DNA from: Lachnospiraceae bacterium
GTDB taxonomy: Bacteria; Bacillota; Clostridia; Lachnospirales; Lachnospiraceae
NCBI GenBank assembly: GCA_949383255.1
Contig: CASJPF010000009.1
Location: 1-64,000 of the forward strand
Reading direction: 5' to 3'
DNA: 64,000 nt
The notes below the pieces were generated by a model that worked only from the letters and a program-made list of their open reading frames with translations, was not told the origin of the DNA and did no database searches. This document shows, in pieces, positions 1,681-51,995 of the stretch. How positions within the stretch are numbered: position 1 is the first letter of the stretch; the number at the start of each line of letters is the position of its first letter. The position numbers and the translations under genes were made by a program.

Positions 1681-2688
1681 ATGAAAACAATAGAATTAAT
1701 CGTACCATGTTATAATGAAGAGAAGTGTATTGAATTATTTTACAATGCTGTCAGGGAGGTTTTTAGGAAGCTTCCTGATTTTGATTTTATTATTACCTAT
1801 GTTGATGATGGAAGCAGAGATCATACATTAAACGAAATTAAAAGGGTAGTGGAAATTGCAGGTCAAGGTTCAGTTCAATATATTGCCCTTTCAAGAAATT
1901 TTGGGAAAGAATCGGCAATTTATGCAGGGCTGAGCAAAAGTACAGGTGACTATGTGGCGCTTATCGATGCAGATTTACAGCATCCCCCAGAATTGTTAAT
2001 TCCAATGATTGATGCAATTGAAAAAGAAGGGTACGACAGGGCTACTGCAAGACGGGTATCCAGAAAAGGGGAACCTTTGGTACGAAGTGCTTTTTCAAAG
2101 GCGTTTTATTCGATTATCAATCATATTACTGTTCTAGATTTAATATCAGGAAGTACAGACTATTGCCTAATGAAAAGAACTGTGGTGGATTCTATTGTGT
2201 CTATGAGTGAACGAGAGCGTTTTACAAAGGGAATTTATTCATGGGTGGGATTTAAGAACAAATGGATAGAGTATGAAAATGTTGAGCGTGTTGCTGGGCG
2301 TACAAAGTGGAGCTTTTTAGGGTTATTGCGCTACGCGTACAATGGATTTATTGCATTTGCGACAACACCACTGCGTGGAGTTGTATATCTAGGAATATTG
2401 ATAACGATTGCTTCTTTTTGGTATGCTATTAAAATAGGGATAATGGCATTAAAAAACCCGTTGGCTCCTAGAACTGGATATAACAGCATTATGATTGTTC
2501 TATTATTTCTAGGTGGTGTAATTATCACAACGTTAGGAGTAATAGGAGAATATCTTGCACGGATATATATGGAGGTTAAGAATCGCCCTATCTATATTGA
2601 GCGGGAGACAAATATTAAGGGTGATAAAGAAAAGGAACAGCAGGCGTTGATAGCAGGCAATAATACAGACTCTGAGAAAGGATTGTAA
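1681..2688 (+). CDS. GtrB/DPM1-like GT2 polyprenyl-phosphate glycosyltransferase
   Basis: 335 aa. Family role: transfers a sugar from a nucleotide sugar to polyprenyl phosphate at the inner face of the membrane. N-terminal GT-A domain: IVPCYNEE at residues 8-15, YVDDGSRD at about 40, LSRNFGKESAI at about 77, and DADLQHPPE (the DXD-type metal site) at about 98. The C-terminal third has two hydrophobic helices (about 225-250 and 263-290) followed by the family signature GEYLARIYMEVKNRPIY. The sugar cannot be read from sequence. It opens the operon with the heptose genes and the GT-C-like proteins at 7522 and 9201, so a three-component glycosylation set is likely (inference). The start is supported by AGAAGGAAAA 4-13 bases upstream. 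Confidence 0.85.
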   Translation: MKTIELIVPCYNEEKCIELFYNAVREVFRKLPDFDFIITYVDDGSRDHTLNEIKRVVEIAGQGSVQYIALSRNFGKESAIYAGLSKSTGDYVALIDADLQHPPELLIPMIDAIEKEGYDRATARRVSRKGEPLVRSAFSKAFYSIINHITVLDLISGSTDYCLMKRTVVDSIVSMSERERFTKGIYSWVGFKNKWIEYENVERVAGRTKWSFLGLLRYAYNGFIAFATTPLRGVVYLGILITIASFWYAIKIGIMALKNPLAPRTGYNSIMIVLLFLGGVIITTLGVIGEYLARIYMEVKNRPIYIERETNIKGDKEKEQQALIAGNNTDSEKGL

Positions 2689-2692
2689 CTTT

Positions 2693-3697
2693 ATGATGGA
2701 GGACCGATTGAAAAACGCTGTCCAGAATGATTTTAATAAAAAACGAATTTTGGTACTTGGAGATTTAATGGTAGATGAATACATTCTGGGCAAAGTAGGA
2801 AGAATATCACCGGAGGCCCCAGTCCCTGTTTTAAACTATAGAGGAACACAGCGAAATGCAGGAGGAGCCTCTAATGTAGCGCTCAATATGCATGCTATGG
2901 GGGGAAAACTTGCTGTGGCAGGTGTAGCAGGGTTGGATGACAGCGGAATATGGCTTAGGGATTTTTTGAGAAATGCGTCTATTAATACGGAGGGAATTTT
3001 TGCAGATGAAAACCGCATGACAACGGTAAAGACACGGTTTGCAACAAAGGTGCAGCAGCTTTTGCGAGTGGATAGGGAAGATAGCAGTCCAATACAAGAG
3101 GCTGTCCGCACAAAAATTTTAGATTATATTGTATCTTATATTTCAGAGTGGGATGCAATCGTGCTTTCAGACTATTGCAAAGGTGTGTTAGAAGACGCAG
3201 AGTTTGTGAGAAAGATTATTCAGATCTGCAATGAAAACCAAGTGATTGTTACAATTGACTCAAAAAGTCGGCATATTGAAGCTTTTGAGAATGCAGATTT
3301 TGTAAAACCAAACAATTTGGAATTAGAAAATGCAGTGAATATAAAGATCGTGGATTTGGACTCCCTTGACAGGGCAGGAAAAGCGTATTTGGAGCGCTCT
3401 AAGGCAAAGTGTATTATTGTGACAAGAGGGGCTGAAGGAATCTCAATTTTTGAACACGGTAGAGACAGAAGAGATTATGCTTCTAAGGCAGTTCAAGTAT
3501 TTGATGTGACAGGTGCAGGGGATACGGTTATCAGCGCGGTTACATTGGGACTTGCAAGTGGTTTTACAATGGATAATGCGGTCATTTTAGCGAATATTGC
3601 GGCGGGGATTGTTATAGGAAAAAGGGGCACAGCCGTTGTCACAAGAGATGAGTTAATGGAGAGGCTAAATGAAAAGAAAGATTATAAATTTGGATGA
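2693..3697 (+). CDS. hldA: D-glycero-beta-D-manno-heptose-7-phosphate kinase (HldA / RfaE domain I)
   Basis: 334 aa, PfkB/ribokinase fold, matching the separate HldA kinase or the N-terminal half of fused HldE. It makes D-glycero-beta-D-manno-heptose 1,7-bisphosphate from the 7-phosphate with ATP. Visible features: GDLMVDEYILGKVGRISPEAPVPVL-type N-terminus (RISPEAPVPV is characteristic of RfaE kinases), NAGGASNVALN at about residue 55, SDYCKGVL at about 160, and the ribokinase signature VTGAGDT at about 272 with the catalytic Asp. The next gene, which encodes the adenylyltransferase half, starts inside its 3' end (29-base overlap), so the two functions fused in E. coli HldE are separate but translationally coupled here. 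Confidence 0.92.
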   Translation: MMEDRLKNAVQNDFNKKRILVLGDLMVDEYILGKVGRISPEAPVPVLNYRGTQRNAGGASNVALNMHAMGGKLAVAGVAGLDDSGIWLRDFLRNASINTEGIFADENRMTTVKTRFATKVQQLLRVDREDSSPIQEAVRTKILDYIVSYISEWDAIVLSDYCKGVLEDAEFVRKIIQICNENQVIVTIDSKSRHIEAFENADFVKPNNLELENAVNIKIVDLDSLDRAGKAYLERSKAKCIIVTRGAEGISIFEHGRDRRDYASKAVQVFDVTGAGDTVISAVTLGLASGFTMDNAVILANIAAGIVIGKRGTAVVTRDELMERLNEKKDYKFG

Positions 3698-4157
3698 ACT
3701 TGAAAAAGTAGTATTGGATGCAAAACAGCGTGGACAGGTTATCGTGTCTACAAGTGGATGCTTTGATATTCTTCATGCGGGGCATGTGACTTATTTGACC
3801 GAGGCAAAAGCAAAAGGAGATATTTTGGTGGTACTACTTAACTCGGACAGTTCCGTCAGGGCCTTAAAAGGCAGTACAAGGCCAATTGTACCGGAGAATG
3901 AGCGGGCAGTTGTTATCGCTGGACTTGAGAGTGTGGATTATGTGTGTATCTTTTCGGATAGGACCCCCTGTGGTATAATTGACAGAATACAGCCGGATAT
4001 TGTGGTGAAAGGCGGCGATTATGCAGGGATACAGATTCCAGAAATGGAACATACTGCTGCCTATGGAGGCAAGGTTGTTTACGTCAGTATGATGGATGGA
4101 TGCTCGACCACAAATATTGTGGAGAAAATAAAAAAAACAATGGAGGAGTCGTCATGA
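3669..4157 (+). CDS. hldC: D-glycero-beta-D-manno-heptose 1-phosphate adenylyltransferase (HldC / RfaE domain II)
   Basis: 162 aa, cytidylyltransferase-like fold. It converts heptose 1-phosphate and ATP to ADP-D-glycero-beta-D-manno-heptose. The nucleotide-binding motif CFDILHAGHVTYL (HxGH type) is at about residues 31-43, LLNSDSSVRALKG at about 57-70, RPIVPENERA at about 72-82, and VVKGGDY at about 115. All match RfaE2/HldC rather than GDP-forming HddC enzymes. It overlaps hldA by 29 bases and ends in an ATGA overlap with hldD. Confidence 0.92.
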   Translation: MKRKIINLDELEKVVLDAKQRGQVIVSTSGCFDILHAGHVTYLTEAKAKGDILVVLLNSDSSVRALKGSTRPIVPENERAVVIAGLESVDYVCIFSDRTPCGIIDRIQPDIVVKGGDYAGIQIPEMEHTAAYGGKVVYVSMMDGCSTTNIVEKIKKTMEESS

Positions 4158-5122
4158 GTATTATTGTAACTGGAGGGGCTGGTTTTATTGGAAGTTGTAT
4201 TGTACGAGCATTAAATGACCGCGGTTTGGAGGATATTATTATTGTCGATCATATTGCAGAGACAGATAAGTGGATGAATTTAAGAAATAAAAAATATGTT
4301 AAATATATTAACCGCGATGCGTTTTTGGAACAACTTCCAAAATACTCGGGTAGAGTATCGCATGTGATTCATATGGGAGCATGTTCCGCTACCACAGAAA
4401 AAAATTTTGATTTTCTATATAAAAATAATCTAGAGTATACACAGACATTATGGAATTTTTGTGTGGAGAACCAGATTTGTTTTCTCTATGCAAGCAGTGC
4501 TGCCACCTATGGCGATGGAGCGCAGGGATTTGATGACAGAACAGATATTAGTCAATTGCGCCCGCTAAATGGGTATGGGTACTCTAAACAATTGTTTGAT
4601 TTGTGGGTGGAAAAACAAGTATTAAAACCCAAACAGCATGTAGGGTTTAAATTTTTTAATGTCTATGGTCCGAATGAATACTTTAAAGGCTCAATGGCAA
4701 GTGTAATCTTTCATTCTTTTAATAAAATTACAGAAACAGGTGAGATGGGATTATTTAAATCTTATCATAATAAATATGCAGATGGCGGTCAATTGCGGGA
4801 TTTTGTGTATGTGAAGGATATTTGTAAGGTTATTTTGTTTATGATGGATCATCCTGAAATAAATGGGCTGTTTAATCTTGGAACAGGTAAGGCAAGAAGC
4901 TTTTATGACTTGGCTACAGCGACTTTTCGGGCGATGAAATTGGAGCCAAAGATAAAGTATATTGATATGCCAGAGACGTTGCGGCCCAAATACCAGTATT
5001 TTACGGAGGCGGTAATGGATAAGCTGCGCAGTGTGGGGTATCAAGAAGCATTTACTTCTCTTGAGGAAGGGGCAAGTGATTATGTGTGTAACTATCTGGC
5101 AAAAGGCTATGAAGTTTACTAA
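4154..5122 (+). CDS. hldD: ADP-L-glycero-D-manno-heptose 6-epimerase
   Basis: 322 aa from the ATG at 4154, chosen because GGAGG lies at 4142-4146 and the protein then starts directly at the Rossmann strand; an in-frame ATG at 4100 would add 18 residues lying inside hldC. Extended SDR fold: [10 protein letters not shown] near the N-terminus binds NAD(P), ASSAATYGDG and the active-site YGYSK (YxxxK) follow, then FFNVYGPNEY and GQLRDFVYVKD, which are typical of HldD. It inverts C6 of ADP-D-glycero-beta-D-manno-heptose to the L-glycero form, the last step of the pathway encoded here. Confidence 0.92.
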   Translation: MSIIVTGGAGFIGSCIVRALNDRGLEDIIIVDHIAETDKWMNLRNKKYVKYINRDAFLEQLPKYSGRVSHVIHMGACSATTEKNFDFLYKNNLEYTQTLWNFCVENQICFLYASSAATYGDGAQGFDDRTDISQLRPLNGYGYSKQLFDLWVEKQVLKPKQHVGFKFFNVYGPNEYFKGSMASVIFHSFNKITETGEMGLFKSYHNKYADGGQLRDFVYVKDICKVILFMMDHPEINGLFNLGTGKARSFYDLATATFRAMKLEPKIKYIDMPETLRPKYQYFTEAVMDKLRSVGYQEAFTSLEEGASDYVCNYLAKGYEVY

Positions 5123-5139
5123 ATTGGGGGCAGAGATAG

Positions 5140-5742
5140 ATGCGAAACTATATTAAAGAAAATATCCAAGAAAGTATTATGACAAAAGAAAAACTTTTGC
5201 GTGATGAGATGCTGATTGGAACGATAGAGCAAGTAGCGCAAGTCTGTATCAGTGCATATCAGAGCGGAAATAAGATTCTGATATGTGGGAATGGTGGAAG
5301 TGCGTCAGATGCACTGCATATGGTAGGAGAACTTGTAGGCAGATACCAGATGGAGCGCAGAGGCATTGCCGCAGTTGCGCTCAATGCAAATCCGACAGTG
5401 ATGACAGCGATTTCAAATGATTATACGTTTGAAAATATTTTTTCAAAGCAAGTTACAGCTTTGGGAAAAGAGGGCGATGTATTGTTTGGTATCTCAACGA
5501 GTGGAAATTCTGCAAATGTTATCAATGCCTTAGAGGAGGCAAAAAAACGGAATATATATACCATTGGAATGACAGGTTCTACAGGTGGAAAGATAAAAAG
5601 TATAGCAGATTATTTGCTTAATGTTCCTTCAGAGAATACGCCAAGGATTCAGGAAATGCATATTCTGTTGATTCATACACTTTGCGGATTGATAGAAAGA
5701 GGACTGCAAGAACAAGGATTTTGGGCGGAGGCTTTCGAGTGA
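5140..5742 (+). CDS. gmhA: Sedoheptulose 7-phosphate isomerase
   Basis: 200 aa, SIS domain. It converts sedoheptulose 7-phosphate to D-glycero-D-manno-heptose 7-phosphate, the first committed step. Phosphosugar-binding motif CGNGGSASDALHMVGELVGR at about residues 49-68, then GISTSGNSANV at about 121, and IQEMHILLIHTLCGLIE near the C-terminus, supplying the His/Glu residues of the zinc site in this family. A GGGGG-containing ribosome binding site lies just upstream. It follows hldD by 17 bases. Confidence 0.92.
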   Translation: MRNYIKENIQESIMTKEKLLRDEMLIGTIEQVAQVCISAYQSGNKILICGNGGSASDALHMVGELVGRYQMERRGIAAVALNANPTVMTAISNDYTFENIFSKQVTALGKEGDVLFGISTSGNSANVINALEEAKKRNIYTIGMTGSTGGKIKSIADYLLNVPSENTPRIQEMHILLIHTLCGLIERGLQEQGFWAEAFE

Positions 5743-5743
5743 T

Positions 5744-6937
5744 ATGGCATGGCGGAGTATATGGGATAAAGCCTACAGATGGATAAATATTTGGTTTACG
5801 CAGTTTCGAGTAGTAGGGCTTAGAAACCAAAGACCGAAACGTGATGCACAGGGAATTATTATTATAAAAATAGATGCAATTGGGGACTTTTTAATTTGGC
5901 TTGACAGTGCACAACAGTATAAAAAGTTGTATTCCGGGCAAAAGATTACTTTGGTATGCAATACTTTTTGTGTTGAAATAGCAAAAAACACAGGTTTTTT
6001 TGACGAAGTAATACCAATAGAGACCAAAAAATTTGAATTCAATGTCAAATATAAAAAAGAAATTTGGAGTCGTTTTTGTGACAGAGCGTTTCATACATTG
6101 TTACAAACTGCATATTCACGCACAGTTGATATGGACCTTCTTGCAAGAAACATTCCAGCAAAAGAAAAAATTGCTTTTGTGGCAGATGAATCCAGAGTGA
6201 ATCTAAGCAGATATATCACATTCCGGCATATTCGCAAAAAATTGGATGATAGTTACGACAGACTAATTCCGTCAGGAGGAAAGAATCTAATGGAGCTTGA
6301 GAGGAATGCCGTTTTTATTAGAGGGCTTGGATTTGATTTTCAGGCGGGGTATCCCTCCCTTCCACAAATATCTGTTCACCAGAACGTAATACCACAAAAG
6401 CCATATACCATTATTTTCCCTGGAGCAAGTTCTGGCAAAAAAATGTGGCCCATCAATCGCTATGCACAAGTAGGTGAATATATTATTAGGAAAAAAGAAA
6501 TGGATTTGTATTTGTGCGGAGGTCAGAACGAGGAATACCTATTTCACCAGTTTGTGGAGGCAATGCAACATAGGGAGCTTAAAGATAGAGTCCATAATTT
6601 ATTTGGAAAGACAACATTGTCTGAGCTTGCGGAAATTATTCGAAATGCAGAATTACTCATTGGAAATGATACAAGCGGTATTCATTTTGCAGCGGCTGTA
6701 AATACAAAAGGAATTTGTATTTTTGGAGAATTTGCATATGGCAGGTTTTTGCCATATCGCTGTGAGCGTGGCTGCAAGGAGCATAAGCCAATTGTTGTGT
6801 GTAGCGCAAAGAAAGATTGTGCAGGTTGTGCATATGGAAAAATTACGGCTGCTTGTAAAGAAAATCTACTAAAGACAGGAAGGTATCAGTGTGTAGATGA
6901 AGTGCAGGTAGATCAAGTAATTCGCGCGCTGTCATAG
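5744..6937 (+). CDS. GT9 family (ADP-heptose) glycosyltransferase
   Basis: 397 aa, GT-B fold of family GT9, whose characterised members transfer heptose from ADP-heptose. Visible motifs: IIIIKIDAIGDFLIWL at about residues 38-53 (family N-terminal signature), FPGASSGKKMWP at about 225 (donor-binding region, K/W pattern as in WaaC/WaaF), and LLIGNDTSGIHFAAAV at about 305 (D/H pair of GT9). The C-terminus has a Cys-rich stretch (CSAKKDCAGC) often seen in GT9 proteins. It sits between gmhA and gmhB, making ADP-heptose the probable donor. The acceptor is unknown; it cannot be lipid A core if the cell is Gram-positive. Confidence 0.85.
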   Translation: MAWRSIWDKAYRWINIWFTQFRVVGLRNQRPKRDAQGIIIIKIDAIGDFLIWLDSAQQYKKLYSGQKITLVCNTFCVEIAKNTGFFDEVIPIETKKFEFNVKYKKEIWSRFCDRAFHTLLQTAYSRTVDMDLLARNIPAKEKIAFVADESRVNLSRYITFRHIRKKLDDSYDRLIPSGGKNLMELERNAVFIRGLGFDFQAGYPSLPQISVHQNVIPQKPYTIIFPGASSGKKMWPINRYAQVGEYIIRKKEMDLYLCGGQNEEYLFHQFVEAMQHRELKDRVHNLFGKTTLSELAEIIRNAELLIGNDTSGIHFAAAVNTKGICIFGEFAYGRFLPYRCERGCKEHKPIVVCSAKKDCAGCAYGKITAACKENLLKTGRYQCVDEVQVDQVIRALS

Positions 6938-6963
6938 AGAAAGTAAAGTGAGAACATAGGAAT

Positions 6964-7500
6964 ATGAATAAAGCGGTTTTTTTAGATAGAGATGGTACGC
7001 TAAATGTAGAGGTTGACTATTTGCATGAGACAGATAAACTTGTGTTTATTGATGGTACATTTGAGGCATTAAGTTTGTTAAAATCGCATCATTATAAGTT
7101 AATTGTAATATCAAACCAATCAGGGATTGGCAGAGGATACTATAAGGAACAAGAGGTCGAACAGCTTCACCGTTATATGAATATGATTTTGAAAGAGCAT
7201 CATGCAGCAATTGATGCCTTTTATTATTGTCCTCATGTGGAACAAGATCGATGCTTGTGTAGAAAACCACTTACTGGGCTGATTGACCGTGCAGTGAACG
7301 AGTGGAATATCGATTTGGGACAATCTTATATGGTTGGGGATAAGGAATCGGATTTAATGACAGCACATAATGCTGGATGTGAGGGCGCATTGGTTTTGAG
7401 TGGTCATTATGTCTCCGAAATACTGCAAGAAAAGTATAAGAAATATTTATATAAAAATCTATGGGATTTTGCACAACAGATCTGTATGCATAAAGAATAA
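6964..7500 (+). CDS. gmhB: D-glycero-beta-D-manno-heptose 1,7-bisphosphate 7-phosphatase
   Basis: 178 aa, HAD superfamily. It removes the 7-phosphate to give heptose 1-phosphate. The catalytic motif FLDRDGTLN is at residues 5-13 (nucleophile and acid Asp), ISNQSGIGRG at about 50 is motif II, a Cys/His zinc-binding loop CPHVEQDRCLCRKP at about 89-102 is diagnostic of GmhB, and MVGDKESD at about 121 is motif IV. With hldA, hldC, hldD and gmhA it completes the pathway. Confidence 0.92.
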   Translation: MNKAVFLDRDGTLNVEVDYLHETDKLVFIDGTFEALSLLKSHHYKLIVISNQSGIGRGYYKEQEVEQLHRYMNMILKEHHAAIDAFYYCPHVEQDRCLCRKPLTGLIDRAVNEWNIDLGQSYMVGDKESDLMTAHNAGCEGALVLSGHYVSEILQEKYKKYLYKNLWDFAQQICMHKE

Positions 7501-7521
7501 GAAAATTTATTTGGAGGAAAG

Positions 7522-9195
7522 ATGCGCGAAAGAAAAGAAGACAACAACGTGTTAGTTGGATTGGCTGCATTGATTGGCTGCATAGCATTTATTTTAATTT
7601 ATGGGGTAACTGTACTAAATCCTGTCTATGATGATTGGCTTCTGGGACAAGGAGATTTAACACAGCATTACCTAGGCTGGTGTTTTTATCGGCGCTCAGA
7701 TTGGACAGTTCCTATTGGGCTTGCGAACAATCTTGCATATCCTTCTTATACTTCTGTGATCTTTACGGATTCTATTCCACTGTTAGCTGTATTGTTTAAA
7801 GTATTATCGCCTTTTTTACCGGAGACGTTTCAGTATTTTGGCTGGTGGGGAATCTTGAGTTTTGCATTACAAGGCTATTTTTCTGCTAAAATTTTGCAAG
7901 AATTTTTGTCGGAAAAGTTACAAATATTGATAGGCAGTATTTTTTTTATTGTATCACCGATTGTAATTGAGCGGATGTTTCGACATACAGCACTAGGGGG
8001 GCACTGGTTAATTCTTATAGCAATCTATTTGTTTATAAGACATAAGAAAGACTATCAAAACTGGATAAAAACCACGTTGTGTTGGGGTGGACTTGGAGCT
8101 CTTATTGCTGCAATACATTTATATTTTCTTCCAATGTGCGGCGCATTTTTGTGTGGGTATTTGCTATGCAGTATTTTAAGAGACAAAAAGATTTATTTGA
8201 ATCGCTTTTTGCCGGGGGGGTCGTTTGTTGGGGCGATTGGTTTGGTTACGTATTTATTGGGAGGATTTTCGACGCGTGCTACGTCTAGTGCAGATGGGCT
8301 TGGAGAATGCAGCTTTAACTTAAATGGGTTTTTTAATGAGAAGGGATACTCGCGTTTTTTTAATGCACTTCCAATGTATCATGAAAGCCAATATGAAGGT
8401 TTTGCTTATCTAGGATTTGGAATTTTTATTCTCGCTGCAATTGCGGTACTCTTTATGCTTGTGGAGACAGTGCGCAAACGGGGCAGATGGCTACAAGATT
8501 ATTTTGTAGAATTGTTGTCTGGTTCACTTATTTCAATAGGGCTTATTTTGTTTGCGGCATCGCCAATGGTGACTTGGAATAATAAATTGCTCTTTATTCT
8601 GACAGACAGTAGTACGCTGACAAATTACTGGAGTATTTTTCGTGCGACGGGAAGAGTTGTTTGGCCGGTGTGCTATCTAATCTACCTTGTTGTAATTGTT
8701 TGTAATGGGAAATTATGGAGCATTTTTTTCAAAAAGAGCACTGTGGCATCAGTGGTTACTACGTTGGTGCTTACAGGGTGTTGTTTTTTACAAATATTTG
8801 ATATTAGTGAGCGACTGGCGGGACAGCGAGAGTGGCTTGAAGAGAAAAGTGTCTACAAGTCCTCACTCCAAGATGAGGTTTGGGATTTGCTTGCAAAACA
8901 ACAAAATCTTGAACATTTTGTCTGGGTATCCAACAATTTTGAGAATAGGCAGATATTGGAGATGGCAAAGTGGGCATATGATAATAGGCTGACAATGAAT
9001 ATCTTTTATTTTGCAAGAGGAATTAGTGTGATAGAAGACACACAATATTGTCTTTCCAATCCAAATGATACCTATGTTTTTGTGTTTACACAGGAAGAGA
9101 TTACAGAATATCTGGATTGTGGACTAAATTTTTATAAGGCAGATGAATATATTGTTGGGACTACCTTTATGCTGGATCATGAGAGGTATGAGTAA
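7522..9195 (+). CDS. Polytopic membrane protein, DUF6311-like (predicted GT-C glycosyltransferase)
   Basis: 557 aa with about 11 hydrophobic segments. The extracytoplasmic loop after TM1 reads GDLTQHYLGWCFYRRSDW, the hallmark of DUF6311-like proteins of O-antigen and teichoic acid clusters, with an acidic residue in the first loop as in GT-C enzymes. The soluble C-terminal tail (from about 470) is probably outside the membrane. Inference: it uses a polyprenyl-phosphate sugar, such as the product of the GtrB-like enzyme at 1681, to decorate the polymer outside the cell. A strong GGAGG precedes the start. It carries G runs of 6 (7996-8001) and 7 (8214-8220). Confidence 0.65.
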   Translation: MRERKEDNNVLVGLAALIGCIAFILIYGVTVLNPVYDDWLLGQGDLTQHYLGWCFYRRSDWTVPIGLANNLAYPSYTSVIFTDSIPLLAVLFKVLSPFLPETFQYFGWWGILSFALQGYFSAKILQEFLSEKLQILIGSIFFIVSPIVIERMFRHTALGGHWLILIAIYLFIRHKKDYQNWIKTTLCWGGLGALIAAIHLYFLPMCGAFLCGYLLCSILRDKKIYLNRFLPGGSFVGAIGLVTYLLGGFSTRATSSADGLGECSFNLNGFFNEKGYSRFFNALPMYHESQYEGFAYLGFGIFILAAIAVLFMLVETVRKRGRWLQDYFVELLSGSLISIGLILFAASPMVTWNNKLLFILTDSSTLTNYWSIFRATGRVVWPVCYLIYLVVIVCNGKLWSIFFKKSTVASVVTTLVLTGCCFLQIFDISERLAGQREWLEEKSVYKSSLQDEVWDLLAKQQNLEHFVWVSNNFENRQILEMAKWAYDNRLTMNIFYFARGISVIEDTQYCLSNPNDTYVFVFTQEEITEYLDCGLNFYKADEYIVGTTFMLDHERYE

Positions 9196-9200
9196 GTGAG

Positions 9201-10781
9201 ATGAATGAGATGAGATTTGATATATTGGCACAATTCGGGAAAAAAATTCCAAAACATATCCAGATTTGTTTTGTTTCAGGTATGCTTGTAGGGTGGCTGA
9301 CGCACTTTTATATGGTTTCACATAAATTGGTGAACTGGGATGATGCGAACAATCTAAGCACACCAGGAAGCGGCGATTATCTTGGGCGGTGGTTTTTAAA
9401 GTATATTCATAAGCTTGGAAGTATTCACAGCATTCCAGCCGTTCACGGAGTTCTTCTTATTGCGTTTCTTGCACTATCAGCTTGTTTGGTATTGGAAATC
9501 CTTCAATTAAAAAGTGTTACTGCAGCAATTTTGGTTCCTGCACTTATGATAACCTTTCCAAGTGTTGTGAGTACAATGACATTTATGTTTATGGCGCACA
9601 CTTCAGGAATTGGCATTTTTATGGTGTGTTTGGCAGTGTATTTGCTGCGTCAATATCGATATGGCTGGCTGCCTTGTACTGCAATATTAGTTTGTGTTCT
9701 TGGTATCTATCAAAGTTATATTAGCTTTGCAATTACATTAATGTTAATGGGGATGATTGTAGATTTAATTCAGCACAAAAAATTTCCTGAAATGTTAAAA
9801 AAAGGCATTGTATGTGTCGTTGTTCTTGGGGGGGGGGTGTTAGTTTATATGAAACTTTCCCATATAATTTATCCCAATCTGGACAATGAAACATATGGTG
9901 GTGTTGGGAATATGGGGCAGATTGCCGTCAGTGAGATGCCACGGTTAATTGCAAGATGTTATAAACGTTTTCTGGAATATTTTTTGTGGAAGCCATTTGC
10001 TTTTGTAACTGCGACAGCACAGCGGATAAATCAAATTACATGTGGATTAGCAGTTGGATTATTTGTCATTGTAACAATACAGAGAAAATTATATCGGGAT
10101 ATTTTATCATTTTTGCTTTTGGTATTGTACTGTTTTTTTGTACCTTTGGCAGCAGCGTTTATTTATTTTATGGCACCAGAGGTCGATTATTCAATGCTTA
10201 TGTTGTACGCGTATGTGTTGGTTTTTGTGTTGGTTTTGGCATTGCTTGAATATTGTATTCAAGATTGGGAGAAAGCCTTCAGCCATACAATATGGCGGCA
10301 AGCAATACAGTGGGGGATTGTAATTATAACTGTTTTGACAATGGCTTTGAGTTGTTATTGTAATTATCTGCTAACCAATAAGGCATATTTGCGAACAGAT
10401 ATTGCGACGGAGCGCGTAAAGGCGTATTTCAATCGTGTAATTGTTATGGCAGAATCGCAAGAAGGTTTTCAGGCAGATGATAAAATTACAATTTTGGGGG
10501 AATTTTATTATAAAGATAATCCAAGTAGCGTAGAGATTGATATTTTTGATTCGGAAGATTTGCGAGAGCTGTCTGGATTGGCACTAGAGAATGGTTTAAT
10601 CACATCTGGCGTGCGGGACAACTTTATTCGTACTTTTCTTGGGTATGAAACGGCTGCACTTGATATGGAAGAAAAGTTGATGCTTATGGAGACAGATGTG
10701 TATCAGAAGATGAGCGTCTATCCGCAAAATGGGTGTGTGCAAAAAATTAATGATGTATGGGTTGTAAAAATGTGTGAATAA
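9201..10781 (+). CDS. GtrII-like polytopic membrane glycosyltransferase
   Basis: 526 aa, about 11 transmembrane segments and a hydrophilic C-terminal tail. Resembles the glucosyltransferase GtrII family: the first extracytoplasmic loop has NWDDANNLSTPGSGDYLGRWFLKYI, with an acidic DD pair followed by GRW, then IYQSYISFAI further on. Family members transfer glucose from polyprenyl-phosphate glucose to O-antigen units; the acceptor here is unknown. The last gene of the heptose operon, followed by a terminator. It contains a 10-G tract in frame (see separate entry) that could switch the gene off by slippage. Confidence 0.7.
   Translation: MNEMRFDILAQFGKKIPKHIQICFVSGMLVGWLTHFYMVSHKLVNWDDANNLSTPGSGDYLGRWFLKYIHKLGSIHSIPAVHGVLLIAFLALSACLVLEILQLKSVTAAILVPALMITFPSVVSTMTFMFMAHTSGIGIFMVCLAVYLLRQYRYGWLPCTAILVCVLGIYQSYISFAITLMLMGMIVDLIQHKKFPEMLKKGIVCVVVLGGGVLVYMKLSHIIYPNLDNETYGGVGNMGQIAVSEMPRLIARCYKRFLEYFLWKPFAFVTATAQRINQITCGLAVGLFVIVTIQRKLYRDILSFLLLVLYCFFVPLAAAFIYFMAPEVDYSMLMLYAYVLVFVLVLALLEYCIQDWEKAFSHTIWRQAIQWGIVIITVLTMALSCYCNYLLTNKAYLRTDIATERVKAYFNRVIVMAESQEGFQADDKITILGEFYYKDNPSSVEIDIFDSEDLRELSGLALENGLITSGVRDNFIRTFLGYETAALDMEEKLMLMETDVYQKMSVYPQNGCVQKINDVWVVKMCE
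9828..9837 (+). repeat. 10-G homopolymer inside the GtrII-like gene
   Basis: Ten consecutive G residues encode Gly-Gly-Gly and the first base of a Val codon (residues 210-213 of the GtrII-like protein). Runs this long are rare in a low-GC coding region and are known slippage sites in contingency genes of other bacteria. A gain or loss of one G would truncate the protein. The current length keeps the gene in frame. Confidence 0.8.
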
Positions 10782-10997: not shown

Positions 10998-12713
10998 ATG
11001 GAAATCCGTTTTAGAAATTATAGAAGAGCAAGTATCATTTTACTATTATTTTTGATAACAGTCGGAATTGGAATGTTGGATTTGATGGAAGATAAGTCTG
11101 TAAAAGCACAATATACAGAAACTTCCAAGGAAGAATTTGAGCTTTCTGTATGGCTTAAGAAAAATCTTTGTATGAAATGGTGGGAGGACACGCAAAACAG
11201 CACATACTTTCTCTTTTTGCCGGGAGCATTTGAGGGAAAAAAGTTAGAGCTAACATTTGGCGGTGCAGAGCATATTTTTATTGACGGAAAAAAAATAAAG
11301 AATGGTGGAAAGTATCGTTTTACACAAGGGCAACATACAGTTCATAGGAATGATTCGCAGGACAGTCCTGCTTATAAATTGGAAGTGTTATACACTTCTG
11401 AGATTCCTGCGCTTTTTCTGGAAACAGAGTCGGGAACCCTCGACCAACTACATGCGGCAAAAGACTATTCGGAGTCAGGAACCCTGTTGTTTTTAGATGG
11501 GAGAGGACATAAATATTATGAGGGTAATCTTGAGGAAATTCACTGTCGCGGCAATTCTTCTTTTGAGGATACCGATAAGAAATCGTATACTATAAAATTA
11601 GAAAACAAGATAGATTTGTTTCATATGGGTTCTGCAAAAAAGTGGATTCTAATTGCAAATGCTTTTGATAATACACTTCTTAGAAACACAACAGCCTTTT
11701 CAATGGCAAGGCTTTTAAATCTGGCATATACGCCAGATGCACAGTATGTAGATGTTTATATAAATGGCAATTTTGTTGGAAACTATTTGCTTACAGAAAA
11801 AATTGAAGTGGGAAAAGATAGGGTTTCTGTTCGGGATTTAAAAAAGGAAGTGAAAAGGCTAAACAATGATATGCCTCTTGAATCTACGGAGTTTTTTATG
11901 GAACCTCAGGGAAGGTTGTTTAGCACTAAAGGATATAGAATACCAAAAGAGCCGGAGGACATTTCTGGTGGGTATTTGCTAGAGCTTGATTCCAGCGACC
12001 GCTATGGACTCGAGGCGAGTGGATTTCTCACATCTCGAATGCAGCCAGTGGTATTTACAAGCCCGAAATATGCGTCTTATGAACAAGTGTCCTACATTGC
12101 CAATCGTTATCAGGATTTTGAAGATGCAATCTTTTCTGAAGATGGACATAGCCCATATACTGGGGCAGCATATAGTGACTATATTGATTTAGATTCTTTT
12201 GCGCGGAAATATCTTCTTGAAGAGTTTGTAAAAAATTTGGATGCTTCTTTTACCAGTCAATATTTCTATAAATATGATGACAGTATTAGCGATAAATTTT
12301 TTGCGGGACCTTGCTGGGATTATGACAAGTCCATTGCTGCATCTGGTATTACGGAATCTGGAATTAACTTGCATGATCCAGATGGATTATATGCCGCGTC
12401 GCAGGAGAAAGATTCTGATATTTGGTATGCCCTATATCAACATGAGGATTTTAGAAAAGAAGTGGCGAAGATATTTTTTCAAGAATTTGAACCGCAGCTT
12501 AGGCGTTGGGCAGAGGATATTCTTTATCAAAATAAGGAACTTATTGCAAAGTCAAATGACTGTAATATGATTCGCTGGGGTACCTTTTCGGAGGAGGAGA
12601 ATCTTACACAGAGGCAGGAACTGTATGAGGCAAAAGTACAGGAACTTTTGTTATTTATTGAGCAGCGTCTTGATTACTTAAAAGACGAGTGGGGGCAAAT
12701 ACAGTATGAGTGA
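10998..12713 (+). CDS. CotH kinase family protein, membrane-anchored
   Basis: 571 aa. One N-terminal hydrophobic segment (about residues 13-30) anchors it with the body outside. The core from about 170 has the CotH pattern: CRGNSSF at about 183, KKSYTIKLE, KKWILIANAFDNTLLRN at about 215-231, YVDVYINGNFVGNYLLTEKI at about 250-269, and the metal-binding CWDYDKS at about 440. Spore-coat CotH is an atypical protein kinase; the many non-spore homologues have unknown substrates. The stop codon of this gene overlaps the VTC-like gene by 8 bases, and DUF4956 follows, a recurrent trio in Firmicutes. A weak AAGGGTG binding site lies upstream. Function in this locus is unknown; extracellular phosphorylation is an inference. 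Confidence 0.8.
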   Translation: MEIRFRNYRRASIILLLFLITVGIGMLDLMEDKSVKAQYTETSKEEFELSVWLKKNLCMKWWEDTQNSTYFLFLPGAFEGKKLELTFGGAEHIFIDGKKIKNGGKYRFTQGQHTVHRNDSQDSPAYKLEVLYTSEIPALFLETESGTLDQLHAAKDYSESGTLLFLDGRGHKYYEGNLEEIHCRGNSSFEDTDKKSYTIKLENKIDLFHMGSAKKWILIANAFDNTLLRNTTAFSMARLLNLAYTPDAQYVDVYINGNFVGNYLLTEKIEVGKDRVSVRDLKKEVKRLNNDMPLESTEFFMEPQGRLFSTKGYRIPKEPEDISGGYLLELDSSDRYGLEASGFLTSRMQPVVFTSPKYASYEQVSYIANRYQDFEDAIFSEDGHSPYTGAAYSDYIDLDSFARKYLLEEFVKNLDASFTSQYFYKYDDSISDKFFAGPCWDYDKSIAASGITESGINLHDPDGLYAASQEKDSDIWYALYQHEDFRKEVAKIFFQEFEPQLRRWAEDILYQNKELIAKSNDCNMIRWGTFSEEENLTQRQELYEAKVQELLLFIEQRLDYLKDEWGQIQYE

Positions 12714-13407
12714 ATACCGACATGAATATAAATATATTTGTAGTGGACAGCAGTTAGCATTGATTGCAAATAAGATACAAGGATTGCTGGAATTTGATCC
12801 ATATGTTGGTGAAGATAGGCGATATAGAATAAGAAGTTTGTATTTTGATGATTATCAAGACAGATGTCTTTATGACAATATTAATGGAAATGATCCGCGT
12901 GAGAAATTTCGGCTGAGGATTTATAATTATAACAAAACTTACATTCGATTAGAACTAAAGAAAAAAGAGCATGGAAAAACAAAAAAACTTTCGTGCAGAA
13001 TTGATGAAGCACTGTGCAGAAAAATGATGCAGGGATTGATAGTGGATATGGATGCAGTGGATGCAGATGTGTATCGCAAGTTTTGCTTATGGCAGAATAC
13101 ACGGCTTCTAAGACCCAAAGTGATTGTGGAATATGACAGGATTCCTTTTATATATAGAGACGGCAATGTCAGAGTAACTTTTGATACAAATATCTGTTCT
13201 GCAAGTTGTGTAGAAGGATTTTTAGATGACAATATTGTCACAAGACCAGTGATGCCTTTAGGGGAACATATTTTGGAAGTTAAGTTTGACGAACTGATTC
13301 CAGATTTTATCTATGCGGCGGTCCAGACAGAACGGCTGTGTCAGACAACGTATTCTAAATATTATATGTGTAGAAAATACAGCATTGCAGGAGGAAATAC
13401 ACTATGA
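12706..13407 (+). CDS. VTC-domain (polyphosphate polymerase-like) protein
   Basis: 233 aa, soluble, tunnel-fold VTC domain. Characterised VTC proteins make polyphosphate from ATP. Signature blocks: YRHEYKYICS at the N-terminus, YRIRSLYFDD at about 44, REKFRLRIYN at about 65, IRLELKKKEHGKTKK at about 82 (basic tunnel residues), PKVIVEYDRIPFIY at about 136, VTFDTNIC, and HILEVKFDE at about 188. It overlaps the genes on both sides (8 bases with CotH, ATGA with DUF4956), so the three products are probably made together and may form a membrane complex. Confidence 0.8.
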   Translation: MSEYRHEYKYICSGQQLALIANKIQGLLEFDPYVGEDRRYRIRSLYFDDYQDRCLYDNINGNDPREKFRLRIYNYNKTYIRLELKKKEHGKTKKLSCRIDEALCRKMMQGLIVDMDAVDADVYRKFCLWQNTRLLRPKVIVEYDRIPFIYRDGNVRVTFDTNICSASCVEGFLDDNIVTRPVMPLGEHILEVKFDELIPDFIYAAVQTERLCQTTYSKYYMCRKYSIAGGNTL

Positions 13408-14078
13408 AGTTTAATGATGTTTTAAAAAAGTCCTTTGTTAATACATTTACGATGGCTGATTTATCCCTGTCGGAGATAATACTAATCTTTGTCATTACTT
13501 TGGTTTTCGCATTGTATATTTATTTTATCTATAAGATTTTTGCACGAAAAACTTTTTATAATAAAAGTTTTAATATCTCGCTTGCAGCGACAGCAATCAT
13601 TACAGCGGCTGTTATTATTACCATTCAGTCAAGTATTGTGGTTTCCCTTGGTATGGTAGGTGCATTGTCCATTGTTAGATTTCGGACTGCGGTAAAAGAT
13701 CCCTTGGACTTGGTTTTTATGTTCTGGGCATTAGCAATAGGAATTATATGTGGTGTAGGATTGTTTTATGTGGCTGGAATCTTGTCAATCGTTGTGACAG
13801 CAATGATTTTTGTGATGGATAAGTTTCCCACAGTTCAGGCACCTATGATATTGATGGTGCAGACCATGTATTGCGATATGGAGGAGGACATTAGCAAGAT
13901 TGTGTTAGAATACACAAAGTATTTTAAAGTAAAATCAAGAAATATTACGCCAGAGCGAACAAGTATTGTTATGGAGTTGCGAGTGAAGGACAGCGGCGGT
14001 CTTGTACAAAAATTAAGCAGCCTTGAGGGTGTATCTTATGTGTCTATGATTGACCATGATGGAGAAGTAACTTATTAG
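13404..14078 (+). CDS. DUF4956 membrane protein
   Basis: 224 aa. Four hydrophobic segments (about 22-45, 58-80, 83-105 and 110-135), with the conserved GMVGALSIVRFRTAVKDPLDLVFMFWALAIGI stretch of DUF4956 at about 78-110, followed by a cytoplasmic alpha/beta domain of about 85 residues. Biochemical function is unknown. It recurs beside VTC and CotH proteins, suggesting a partner channel or scaffold. Its start overlaps the VTC stop by 4 bases. Confidence 0.8.
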   Translation: MKFNDVLKKSFVNTFTMADLSLSEIILIFVITLVFALYIYFIYKIFARKTFYNKSFNISLAATAIITAAVIITIQSSIVVSLGMVGALSIVRFRTAVKDPLDLVFMFWALAIGIICGVGLFYVAGILSIVVTAMIFVMDKFPTVQAPMILMVQTMYCDMEEDISKIVLEYTKYFKVKSRNITPERTSIVMELRVKDSGGLVQKLSSLEGVSYVSMIDHDGEVTY

Positions 14079-20243: not shown

Positions 20244-22193
20244 ATGATGAATTATATAATTGGCCTGATTGGTGATATTCTTGGATGGCTGATGTATTTT
20301 TGCTATCGTGTTTTACCAGATTACTTTATATCAATTATTGTCTTTACTTTTGGAACCAAGATCGTTCTCCTGCCAGTTTCCTTATGGGTGCAAAAAAATT
20401 CAATTAAGATGGTAAAAATGCAGCCGGAAATGAATTTTATTAAGGCAAAATATTATGGAAACAGCGAAAAGATTTCAGAGGAGCAGTATGAGTTATATAA
20501 GAGAGAGCATTATCAGCCGCTTGCAGATTTGATTCCGCTCGCGTTACAACTTATTCTTTTGATGGGGGTTATCGAGGTAATTAATCATCCAGAAGAATAC
20601 ATTTTTCGCGGAAAACCAGGAGTGCTTGACACAATGTTAGGCAGTTTAGATTTGTCGTCTGTACCAGTGGAAGTTGGGGGAATTGCATACTTAATTCCTT
20701 TGGTGGCGGCACTATCTGCATGGTTTATGTGCTTTATACAAAATAAAATTAATGTGTTACAGGCAGAGCAGGGAAAAATGAATCAGATGGGAACAATGAT
20801 ATTGTCGATTGGACTATCATTGTATCTTGGTTTTTTTGTCAAGACAGGAGTTGGAATTTACTGGACATTTAGTAATCTTTTTTCTGTTGTGCAACTCTAT
20901 TTTCTCAATTTCATTATGAATCCAAAAAAATATATTGACTATGATGCACTTGAGAGAAGCCGAGAGGAATTAAGAAGTGCCAGTGCTTTTGAGAAGAAAA
21001 ATAAAAAGAAGTTGTTTGAGAAAGACCCATATAAAAAGAAGGAAAAGGCAGATTACAAACGATTTTTTAAAGACTATGAGATGCAGCTTGTATTTTATTC
21101 AGAAAAAAATGGATTTTATAAATATTTTCAGAATATTATAGAAGTGTTGTTAGAAAAGTCAAATGTGGTAATTCATTATATCACAAGTGATCCAAATGAC
21201 AAAGTATTTGAGATGGAGAGCGACCGTTTTAAACCCTACTATATTGGCGAGAATAAGTTGATTGTTTTAATGATGAAACTTGAGGCAGATGTCGTTGTGA
21301 TGACAACACCTGATTTGGAGAATTTTCATATTAAGCGTTCTCTTGTTCGCAAGGACAATGAATATATCTATGTGCCACATGATGTGAACAGCCCTAATCT
21401 GACCTTTAGAAAAGAGGCACTTGATCACTTTGATACGATTTTTTCTTCTGGGTATCTTTGCACAAAAGAAATTAGAAAACGGGAAGAACTATATAAACTG
21501 CCAGAGAAAAAGATTATTGAGTGGGGCTCAAGCGTAATCGATAATATGATTGAAGCATATGCGTTGATGGATGAAAAAGAGAAGACTGTAAAAGAGATTT
21601 TGATTGCGCCTTCTTGGCAGAAGGGAAATATTTTGGTGTCTTGTATTGAGGAAATACTAGAACGGCTTCAAGGGCGGGGATACCGCATTATTGTCAGACC
21701 GCATCCTCAGTTTGTGCGCCATGAAGAGGAAAGATTGATTTGTCTGCAAGAAAAGTTTGATATGAACAATCGTGATGATATGGAATTACAAATGGATTTC
21801 TCGTCAAATAAGACAGTATATCAGGCAGATCTTGTAATTACGGATTGGTCTAGCATTGCATTTGAATACGCTTTTGCCACGCTAAAACCGGCATTGTTTA
21901 TCAATACACCAATGAAGATTATGAATGAGGATTATAAAGAGTTAGAGATTACTCCAATTGATATTGAACTTCGGGATAAAGTGGGAAAAAGTGTCGATAT
22001 GGACAAGCTTTCAACACTTCCGCAAGTGGTGGATGAGCTTTTGAGAAGTGATGCATTTTCAAAAGAGGCTCTGGAAAAGATTAGAGACAGCTATATTTAT
22101 CATGTTGGCAGTAGTGGAGAGATTGGGGCACAATATATTATGGATAGGCTGGCGTGGTACAAAAAGAAACATGAGGAGGAAGAGGATTATTAA
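20244..22193 (+). CDS. YidC/Oxa1-like membrane domain fused to TagF-like CDP-glycerol phosphotransferase domain
   Basis: 649 aa. Residues 1-230 resemble a YidC/Oxa1 insertase: about five helices, LPDYFISIIVFTFGTKIVLLPVSLWVQKNSIKMVKMQPEM, then PLADLIPLALQLILLMGVIE and GVGIYWTFSNLFSVVQLYFL. After a basic linker (about 235-275) comes a GT-B domain like CDP-glycerol:poly(glycerophosphate) glycerophosphotransferases: LVFYSEKNGFYKYF at about 278, YVPHDVNSPN at about 382, RPHPQF at about 488, and ITDWSSIAFEYAFATLKPALFI at about 533. The fusion is one continuous frame. It is immediately followed (0 bases) by the AEP transaminase, so the donor could be CDP-glycerol or CMP-AEP; the latter is inference. 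Confidence 0.8.
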   Translation: MMNYIIGLIGDILGWLMYFCYRVLPDYFISIIVFTFGTKIVLLPVSLWVQKNSIKMVKMQPEMNFIKAKYYGNSEKISEEQYELYKREHYQPLADLIPLALQLILLMGVIEVINHPEEYIFRGKPGVLDTMLGSLDLSSVPVEVGGIAYLIPLVAALSAWFMCFIQNKINVLQAEQGKMNQMGTMILSIGLSLYLGFFVKTGVGIYWTFSNLFSVVQLYFLNFIMNPKKYIDYDALERSREELRSASAFEKKNKKKLFEKDPYKKKEKADYKRFFKDYEMQLVFYSEKNGFYKYFQNIIEVLLEKSNVVIHYITSDPNDKVFEMESDRFKPYYIGENKLIVLMMKLEADVVVMTTPDLENFHIKRSLVRKDNEYIYVPHDVNSPNLTFRKEALDHFDTIFSSGYLCTKEIRKREELYKLPEKKIIEWGSSVIDNMIEAYALMDEKEKTVKEILIAPSWQKGNILVSCIEEILERLQGRGYRIIVRPHPQFVRHEEERLICLQEKFDMNNRDDMELQMDFSSNKTVYQADLVITDWSSIAFEYAFATLKPALFINTPMKIMNEDYKELEITPIDIELRDKVGKSVDMDKLSTLPQVVDELLRSDAFSKEALEKIRDSYIYHVGSSGEIGAQYIMDRLAWYKKKHEEEEDY

Positions 22194-23378
22194 ATGCAGG
22201 AAATGATAGAAAAGAAGAGTGAAAAAATTAAGAGAAATATTTTGTTAAATCCGGGACCAGCAACCACGACAGACTCTGTTAAAATGGCGCAGATTGTGCC
22301 TGACATCTGCCCGAGAGAGAAAGAATTTGCATCGATGATGAAAAAGATGCGTGATGATTTGGTGCGAATTGTACATGGAGATCCAAATAAGTATACAGCT
22401 GTATTGTTCTGTGGTTCAGGGACAATCAATATAGATATTTGTCTCAATTCTCTGCTGCCAGCAGAAAAGAAGATTTTGATTATAAATAACGGTGCTTACA
22501 GCACAAGGGCGGCAGAAATCTGTGCGTATTATAATCTGCCTTATATTGATTTAAAGTTTCCAGTGGATGAACTGCCAGATTTGGATAAGATAGAAGCGAT
22601 TTTAAAAGACAATCCTGATATTGCTCTTGTTCACACAACACATAATGAGACAGGAACTGGAATATTAAATCCAATTCGAGAGATTGGCGCGCTAGCACAT
22701 CGTTATGGAGCAGTGTTTACAGTGGATACAACATCTACTTATGCGATGAGACCGATTGATATAGAGAAGGAAAATATAGATTTTTGTATGGCATCTGCAC
22801 AGAAGGGACTTATGGCGATGACTGGCTTATCTTTTATTGTGGGAAATACAGAGATAATCCAAAAGTCCGCAGTGTATCCCAAACGGTCTTATTATTGCAA
22901 TTTATATTTGCAGTATCATTTTTTTGAGACGACTGGAGAGATGCATTTTACACCGCCTGTTCAGACGATCTATGCGACAAGACAAGCGCTGGATGAGTAT
23001 TTTGCTGAGGGAGAACAGGCAAAGTGGGAACGCCATCTAAGTGTCTTTGAGGCAATTCATGCTGGATTGGATAAACTTGGATTTCGAGATATTATAAAAA
23101 GAGAGTTGCAGGCAGGGCTAGTAGTGTCTGTAAAATATCCAGAGGATGCAAACTGGGATTTTGAGAAGATTCATGATTACTGTTATGAGCGGGGATTTAC
23201 AATCTATCCGGGAAAAATATCCACACAAGATACATTTCGACTCTGTGCATTAGGGGCAATCACAGCACAAGATATTGCTGATTTTTTTGTCGTATTTGAG
23301 CAGGCACTTAGGGAATATCATGTACAGATTCCTGTTTACTATAAAGAGGCTGACAGTCAAAGAAAGGCAGGATTATGA
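22194..23378 (+). CDS. 2-aminoethylphosphonate transaminase (PhnW-like)
   Basis: 394 aa, PLP-dependent fold-type I, class V. It interconverts phosphonoacetaldehyde plus alanine with AEP plus pyruvate; in this setting it runs towards AEP. Motifs: ILLNPGPATTTDSVK near the N-terminus (typical of AEP transaminases), FCGSGTINID at about 68, THNETGTG at about 145, VDTTSTYAM at about 173, and the PLP Lys in SAQKGLMAMTGLSF at about 199. The start codon abuts the stop of the fusion gene. It overlaps the PEP mutase gene by 4 bases. Confidence 0.88.
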   Translation: MQEMIEKKSEKIKRNILLNPGPATTTDSVKMAQIVPDICPREKEFASMMKKMRDDLVRIVHGDPNKYTAVLFCGSGTINIDICLNSLLPAEKKILIINNGAYSTRAAEICAYYNLPYIDLKFPVDELPDLDKIEAILKDNPDIALVHTTHNETGTGILNPIREIGALAHRYGAVFTVDTTSTYAMRPIDIEKENIDFCMASAQKGLMAMTGLSFIVGNTEIIQKSAVYPKRSYYCNLYLQYHFFETTGEMHFTPPVQTIYATRQALDEYFAEGEQAKWERHLSVFEAIHAGLDKLGFRDIIKRELQAGLVVSVKYPEDANWDFEKIHDYCYERGFTIYPGKISTQDTFRLCALGAITAQDIADFFVVFEQALREYHVQIPVYYKEADSQRKAGL

Positions 23379-24673: not shown

Positions 24674-24695
24674 AAATAAAGATACGGAGATTTAT

Positions 24696-36939: not shown

Positions 36940-36947
36940 AGAAGAAA

Positions 36948-51982: not shown

Positions 51983-51995
51983 GCGAGGGGGAAAT

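Follow-up and report, generated by a model that had tools for sequence, protein, structure and literature searches.

The window analysed here is a stretch of 64,000 bases, positions 1–64,000 of contig CASJPF010000009.1 (C9; 109,641 bases), from the draft genome of a Lachnospiraceae bacterium (GCA_949383255.1; 4.38 Mb in 169 contigs, 86.4% complete, 6.85% contaminated). It carries, at 2693–7500 on the (+) strand, six genes which appear to encode the whole pathway to ADP-heptose together with a glycosyltransferase of family GT9. The order is HldA (2693–3697), HldC (3669–4157), HldD (4154–5122), GmhA (5140–5742), GT9 (5744–6937) and GmhB (6964–7500). A GT2 gene upstream and DUF6311 and GtrII genes downstream are joined to these six in an operon at 1681–10781. 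The junctions are tight: 4 bases between GT2 and hldA, overlaps of 29 bases for hldA/hldC and 4 bases for hldC/hldD, then gaps of 17 (hldD–gmhA), 1 (gmhA–GT9), 26 (GT9–gmhB), 21 (gmhB–DUF6311) and 5 (DUF6311–GtrII) bases. The hldD start is most likely the ATG at 4154 and not the 4100 given by the open reading frame tool, because a ribosome-binding-site-like GGAGG (4142–4146, (+) strand, read directly from the sequence) lies 7 bases before it and the ATG overlaps the hldC stop by 4 bases. An earlier note on this DNA had proposed five pathway activities and a GT9 enzyme in one operon, with HldA and HldC as separate overlapping genes; family models, solved structures and gene positions bear out both proposals. 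The gut setting of the host is surmised from its relatives only.

Proteins were assigned to families by the curated cut-offs of NCBIfam and by Pfam, and compared with solved structures. For four of the five pathway enzymes the score lies above the curated cut-off: GmhA, sedoheptulose 7-phosphate isomerase (TIGR00441, 219 bits against 209.45; 2xbl, E 2e-56); GmhB, heptose 1,7-bisphosphate 7-phosphatase (NF006506, 185.1 against 178; 3l8e, E 5e-32); HldC, heptose 1-phosphate nucleotidyltransferase (TIGR02199, 188.2 against 181.5; 5x9q, E 9e-32); and HldD, ADP-glyceromanno-heptose 6-epimerase (TIGR02197, 412.1 against 274.6; 4ej0, 6e-74, and 1eq2, 2e-73). HldA matches the solved relative 4e84 (E 3e-48) and keeps the GAGD motif, with 333.6 bits on TIGR02198 against a cut-off of 345. 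The comparison with structures that the earlier note had recommended for HldA, HldC, HldD and GmhB thus gave a match for all four, and matches to family models and structures rule out chance open reading frames. The loss of active-site residues in HldD or HldC, against which the same note had cautioned, was not seen. HldC has its HxGH motif, and Y141, K145 and K178 of HldD do not vary across 11 sequences and have counterparts in 1eq2, forming a Tyr-xxx-Lys pair with a second Lys; we take these to be the active-site Tyr, Lys and Lys known from work on E. coli. GmhB, aligned with 3l8e, retains DxD and the CPH..CLC zinc-ligand motif, to which we presume the customary roles. The gene set for ADP-heptose is complete and apparently intact.

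Whether the nucleotide is ADP was weighed on the sequence of HldC. The motif (F/L)XXGRSTT is described as a mark of nucleotide-promiscuous heptose nucleotidyltransferases, with the Arg at position 5 linked to the use of CTP and UTP (PMC11573728). HldC of the window reads MMDGCSTT at this motif, called STTR5, with Cys in place of Arg, as do its counterparts on C25, a second contig of the same draft genome, and in Lachnospiraceae bacterium IMSAGC_011. Since the Arg of the promiscuity motif is missing, ADP is the likeliest nucleotide. A kinase, nucleotidyltransferase or epimerase that has drifted to another heptose or nucleotide, such as CDP- or UDP-heptose, seems improbable. It would fit the score of HldA, about 11 bits under its cut-off, and an HldC whose identity to rows outside the species group does not exceed 62%, and the motif is reported as not strictly required for CTP or UTP use (PMC11461863). 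Against it stand the four enzymes that exceed their cut-offs and the Cys shared by the three HldCs. The shortfall of HldA does count against our own reading as well, while TIGR02198 is still by far its best single-domain family. A GDP-route heptose operon was also considered and rejected: the kinase here is of the PfkB type and the nucleotidyltransferase of the CTP_transf_like/cytidylyltransferase type in Pfam, and neither HddA (GHMP kinase) nor HddC (NTP_transferase) is in the operon, the rest of the genome not having been searched for either.

The GT9 enzyme is of a long, Clostridia-type form, as judged from an alignment of eight sequences and a tree (PF01075, 82.7 bits against 22). Its match to 1psw, the ADP-heptose lipopolysaccharide heptosyltransferase II, has E 1e-5 and covers residues 217–330 of the GT9 only. 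An amphipathic N-terminal helix was sought in 15 sequences, several of which begin at the stop-to-stop end and not at a chosen start codon; the helical moment did not stand out clearly from that of shuffled sequences, of which 46 to 316 in 500 reach it. The net charge before the GD motif is positive in all 15.

The neighbours give the operon its context. The GT2 (1681–2688, (+); PF00535, 103.1 bits; NF047588, 292.7 bits against 500) is of the polyprenyl-phosphate glycosyltransferase type, with PgfS and ArnC-like models nearest. Downstream on the same strand lie a DUF6311 membrane protein that may be GT-C-like (7522–9195; PF19830, 129.8 bits), a GtrII-type membrane glucosyltransferase (9201–10781; PF14264, 214.2 bits) and, assigned by Pfam and synteny, CotH kinase, VTC-domain and DUF4956 genes (10998–14078). 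The order from GT2 to DUF4956 is repeated in IMSAGC_011 with 79–91% protein identity, so the locus is not due to chance. The GT2 gene is retained there and on C25, and the CotH kinase, VTC-domain and DUF4956 genes stay beside the heptose genes in all three copies. Farther along the (+) strand are a priming sugar transferase (Bac_transf) with a WecG/TagA transferase (35515–37697; PF02397, 227.2 bits, and PF03808, 207.3 bits) and a TagGH/Wzm-Wzt-type polysaccharide ATP-binding cassette (ABC) exporter with a Wzt C-terminal domain (50981–53372; PF01061, PF00005 and PF14524). The cluster also holds several GT2s, an aminoethylphosphonate cassette and RmlA, RmlB and RmlC genes, the last three identified by eye. 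A TagGH-type pair lies beside heptose genes in the HldD loci of Oscillibacter and Anaerovibrio too.

These neighbours (priming transferase, WecG/TagA, exporter, GT2s, aminoethylphosphonate and Rml genes) favour a place for the heptose in a wall polysaccharide, and the sugar is probably used to build part of the cell surface. Our reading, to which we give a probability of about 0.6, is that the operon supplies ADP-L-glycero-D-manno-heptose (ADP-L,D-heptose) to a GT9, which attaches the heptose to the lipid-linked precursor of an exported wall polysaccharide, in a cell without lipopolysaccharide. The GT9 would transfer heptose in the cytosol onto the lipid-linked glycan precursor, the TagGH-type exporter of the cluster would carry the glycan out, and the GT-C enzymes (DUF6311 and GtrII), fed by GT2, might decorate it outside the cell; the outcome would be a heptose-containing wall polysaccharide. 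In this scheme the enzymatic products, ADP-heptose as the donor of the GT9 and, above all, the acceptor (a wall polysaccharide or some other component of the envelope) are predicted from the genes. That the enzymes feed the synthesis of a small natural product with activated heptose, like that of septacidin or hygromycin B in Streptomyces, is the faintest of the alternatives; the use of ADP-heptose is known in these Gram-positive bacteria (PMC10221265), while the neighbours here are polysaccharide genes and the GT9 lies inside the operon.

Some features of the cluster are recorded for their own sake. A 649-residue frame at 20244–22193 (+) combines a YidC/Oxa1-type insertase domain (PF02096, residues 27–222) with a TagF/TagB-like glycerophosphotransferase domain (PF04464, residues 415–552), and directly precedes the 2-aminoethylphosphonate genes (22194–26554, (+)), which encode a class V transaminase, a phosphoenolpyruvate (PEP) mutase with an N-terminal cytidylyltransferase domain, an NTP (nucleoside triphosphate) transferase and a thiamine pyrophosphate-type decarboxylase. 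On YidC in connection with 2-aminoethylphosphonate, the literature yielded one paper, on the genome of a Streptomyces. In another heptose locus (L042; L and G numbers are our labels for loci and genomes), NTP transferase, cytidylyltransferase and PEP mutase domains are fused in a single frame. Two (+) strand genes at 42983–46573 and 48906–50219 encode proteins of 1196 and 437 residues with similar C-terminal domains, lysozyme-like by eye; in the larger one, acidic E/D/Y repeats make up a long N-terminal tract.

Signs of lipopolysaccharide were sought in the host. The earlier note had named lipid A genes as a finding that would overturn it; LpxC was not found in the draft genome, and the same search was positive in four of 14 named control genomes. 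The outer-membrane protein Omp85 was likewise not found, with seven of the 14 controls positive, and the draft thus shows no trace of an outer membrane. Nor was a 16S gene, by which the earlier note had proposed to confirm the host, found in the draft. The search for LpxC was negative in all 14 other genomes of the host's own family (f1, taken for Lachnospiraceae from its relatives) that have HldD or HldC (68–99% complete), and in the genome of IMSAGC_011 with the same operon. Among eight genomes of named HldD relatives, LpxC was found in none of the six Clostridia and in both diderms, Anaerovibrio and a Synergistaceae metagenome-assembled genome. In two other families, f39 and f69, LpxC is present in all 11 genomes that have HldD. 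A lipopolysaccharide origin was rejected because LpxC and Omp85 were not found in the host draft, nor LpxC in the own-family carriers and the six Clostridia relatives; judged by gene content, the heptose pathway here is separate from lipopolysaccharide.

The pathway is rare in the family. HldD is over the cut-off in 11 of 397 own-family genomes, and 15 of the 397 have an HldC match with E no higher than 1e-30, the host included in both counts; four HldC-positive genomes (G172, G336, G358 and G383; 99, 99, 91 and 88% complete) gave no HldD in the family search. HldA and HldC are fused in one frame of 477–510 residues in 12 of the 15 and separate in the host, G365 and G383; separate genes are thus the minority form in the family and go with the diderm-related HldA described below. 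In a sample of the phylum, HldD occurs in 12 of 398 genomes, namely the host and 11 from f39 and f69, which we take for Negativicutes because all 11 have LpxC. The HldDs of the 10 other family genomes are 57–74% identical to that of the window. Among the best 80 of 565 relatives in named genomes, a set that may lack the records closest to the window, the nearest HldDs are those of IMSAGC_011 (L054, 91%), Anaerovibrio slackiae (73%) and Oscillibacter ruminantium (70%), followed by three Clostridiaceae or Lachnospiraceae records at 66%.

Trees of single enzymes tell different histories. For those of HldD and HldA, 18 Gram-negative loci were hand-picked from the same best 80 of 565 relatives, and rows had at least 70% coverage and, for HldD, also 40% identity. 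The HldD tree has one supported set (98/97) made up of 17 Clostridia rows with the two diderm rows, Anaerovibrio and Synergistaceae, inside it, and another (100/100) made up of the 11 HldDs of f39 and f69. In the HldA tree, the window, C25, IMSAGC_011, G365 and Anaerovibrio group together (100/100) as sister to eight f39 HldAs (97/92), which are those beside HldC; the 18 other Clostridia HldAs fall in three other places (14, 2 and 2 rows). As a separate observation, each of the f39 loci L172–L179 has two HldA-like kinase genes; one adjoins HldC and the other HldD, and the two fall in different clades of this tree. The GT9 tree, a quick one with several long branches, places 18 of 20 Clostridia rows together with the GT9 of the Anaerovibrio glycan locus (SH-aLRT 94). 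Its 59 rows come from 68 matches; left out were L128 and L130, the Clostridia rows L052:3605, L169 and L171, and L044, whose E was above 1e-14. L128 and L130 are five rows that overlap L120, and one Anaerovibrio core GT9 of 381 residues, absent from L120, was lost with them. With HldD and GT9 in Clostridia-type groups and HldA in a diderm-related one, the operon is, by these trees, a mosaic. The Anaerovibrio HldD locus has WbaP-, GT9-, GmhA-, HldA-, TagG- and TagH-like genes and no match for HldC or GmhB, and is apart from the three-GT9 cluster of the same genome, which is on another contig. Since the Anaerovibrio HldD nests among Clostridia rows, a transfer of HldD towards this diderm is possible.

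The grouping of HldA with Anaerovibrio and the HldC-adjacent f39 enzymes, together with the contamination of the bin, is what could speak for a diderm, lipopolysaccharide-making source of the contig or the pathway, by mixing of bins or recent import of a core operon. That explanation is largely refuted and very improbable, as LpxC and Omp85 were not found in the draft, the same operon is in IMSAGC_011, where LpxC was not found, and HldD and GT9 are of the Clostridia type. The contig C9 also carries GlmS, ClpX and TrpRS genes (identified by eye), and its composition fits the main contigs (r 0.955–0.979), though composition separates near kin weakly (IMSAGC_011 gives 0.925).

A second copy of the locus is found on C25 (loci L011, L133 and L134) with the order GT2-HldA-HldC-GmhA-GT9-GmhB-DUF6311-GtrII-CotH-VTC-DUF4956 and without hldD; the draft genome has only one HldD over the cut-off. 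Among the three copies (C9, C25 and IMSAGC_011), the DNA of the heptose genes is 75–84% alike. Between C25 and C9, nine shared genes are 79–86% identical in DNA, and DUF6311 and GtrII only 69%; genes upstream of the C25 GT2 match their IMSAGC_011 counterparts at 86–91%. On C25 the sequence passes directly from the end of hldC to that preceding the start of gmhA, and both frames remain open. Loss of hldD is the simpler reading, because both other copies have it. By its gene content the C25 locus alone would stop at ADP-D-glycero-D-manno-heptose (ADP-D,D-heptose). The L,D form assigned to this DNA by the earlier note is accordingly upheld for the window locus, where HldD is present, and does not extend to the second locus. 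If both contigs belong to one cell, HldD of C9 could serve both loci; if a relative in the same bin is the source of C25, the product of that strain would be ADP-D,D-heptose. Composition (C25 pieces r 0.838–0.947) and the searches for duplicates do not settle the matter. Apart from this second copy of the locus, C25 and the window share three more stretches (79–88% over 796–1035 bases). For a 10.4-kb housekeeping stretch of C9 the bin shows no duplicate other than pieces of up to about 430 bases at 67–75%, but contigs C89 and C100 pair at 83–86%, as two co-binned relatives would.

Several points, in addition to the score of HldA, weigh against our reading. The GT9 passes no model of a named lipopolysaccharide heptosyltransferase (HepI 71.8 bits against 185.3, HepII 63.4 against 134.6 and HepIII 52.9 against 170.2). 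The absence of single genes from a draft that is 86% complete is soft, while the family-wide pattern agrees with it. When 14 own-family loci were mapped with the window proteins, TagG/TagH were found in L168 only and a WbaP match in L163 only, and most neighbours received no assignment. In G305 (L165) the short heptose cluster stands between the dnaJ, dnaK (HSP70), grpE and hrcA genes and those for lon, clpX and clpP, in a stretch that also has a kinase, a phosphatase and an M3 peptidase; in G358 (L167) it is beside uvrA and uvrB, with an arabinofuranosidase, a transporter and other genes. All non-heptose open reading frames of at least 150 residues in these two 20-kb stretches (12 and 11, respectively) were scanned, and no glycosyltransferase, flippase or polysaccharide exporter was found. 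The GT9s of G305 and G358, 50% and 45% identical to that of the window, are the nearest outside its own species group. The claim of a glycan locus therefore holds around the window operon and is not general, as the related modules of these two family members lie among housekeeping genes.

It follows from such free-standing clusters that the acceptor may not be the polymer encoded at the window and may instead be common to these cells. A self-contained GT9 module that heptosylates a common envelope acceptor, glycolipid or protein, encoded outside the polysaccharide cluster, with its position here due to linkage, is a serious though minority possibility. The GmhA-GmhB-GT9-HldE(-HldD) clusters of G305 and G358 argue for it, as does a likeness at the C-terminus of the GT9. 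There Cys 359, 362, 371 and 383 are spaced C-x2-C-x8-C-x11-C; the iron finger of TibC, with Cys at 339/342/358/370, has the same first and last spacings (C-x2-C and C-x11-C), and the middle loop of the window GT9 is shorter. A loose four-Cys pattern of this kind is present in 14 of 23 Clostridia rows, among them three near-copies (window, C25 and IMSAGC_011), versus five of 45 other rows, some of which are duplicate loci. The likeness is a lead and not a family assignment, because the protein-heptosyltransferase (BAHT) model TIGR04414 gives just 20.9 bits against 200; many other GT9s also have four C-terminal Cys, with shorter spacing. Moreover, the copies in the window, on C25 and in IMSAGC_011 lie inside a glycan cluster with GT2, DUF6311 and GtrII, which speaks against a self-contained module. 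As a bolder and equally tentative proposal, Clostridia free of lipopolysaccharide may have a heptosylation system of their own: a GmhA-GmhB-HldA/HldC(HldE)-GT9(-HldD) module, mobile and self-contained, whose GT9s form a distinct subfamily and place heptose onto an envelope acceptor (glycolipid or protein) that is conserved. Whether hldD is lost or kept would then decide between D,D- and L,D-heptose, and such cells would be potential producers of ALPK1 agonists.

ADP-heptose is best known from Gram-negative lipopolysaccharide and is sensed by the human immune system. Other heptoses occur in polysaccharides of Eubacterium saburreum, on which our literature search found nothing. The ADP-heptose pathway outside Gram-negative bacteria has already been published (PMC11573728; PMC10221265); a review from 2023 treats Gram-positive Streptomyces producers as exceptions (PMC10221265), and a study from 2025 ties the effect of ADP-heptose to Gram-negative gut bacteria (PMC12137129). 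No ADP-heptose locus of Lachnospiraceae or other Clostridia was found among the titles and abstract openings listed by our searches of the open-licence literature. Immune relevance through the host kinase ALPK1, as suggested in the earlier note, is plausible. Since ADP-D,D- and ADP-L,D-heptose are both described as potent agonists (PMC10948575), either locus of this draft genome could matter for ALPK1 activation if the sugar nucleotide is made and released. Clostridia with the full pathway and without lipid A genes, though a small minority, would make the general assumption of ADP-heptose as a Gram-negative signal testable. They would also provide a heptose system independent of lipid A, in which natural versions with and without hldD could be compared.

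Among known systems, the operons for the heptose of the lipopolysaccharide core resemble the window in having the five activities and a GT9 in one operon with active-site motifs kept. The window differs in that no lipid A gene was found, HldA and HldC are separate, and HldD and GT9 fall in other groups than the sampled core enzymes. The HldA/HldC/GT9/HldD operons of f39 and f69 carry LpxC in all 11 genomes and an HldD of their own clade, 41–45% identical to that of the window; those of f39 share the separate HldA and HldC, and their HldC-adjacent HldA is sister to the window set. The HldE-fusion loci of other Lachnospiraceae and Clostridia have a related HldD, mostly a Clostridia-type GT9 and no LpxC, like the window, but HldA and HldC are fused and their HldAs belong to other groups of the tree. 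GDP-D-glycero-α-D-manno-heptose is known from Gram-positive S-layer glycans, which are similar to the proposed product in carrying heptose in a Gram-positive surface glycan; the nucleotide and the anomer are different, and the window enzymes are of the HldA/HldC and not the HddA/HddC type. The BAHT protein heptosyltransferases TibC and Aah are GT9-like with four Cys, C-x2-C and C-x11-C, as is the window GT9, which differs by its low TIGR04414 score and shorter middle Cys loop. The natural ligand of TibC is ADP-D,D-heptose (PMC4358343), whereas the window operon has HldD. Set beside these systems, the finding is a known pathway in an unusual setting and not a new pathway.

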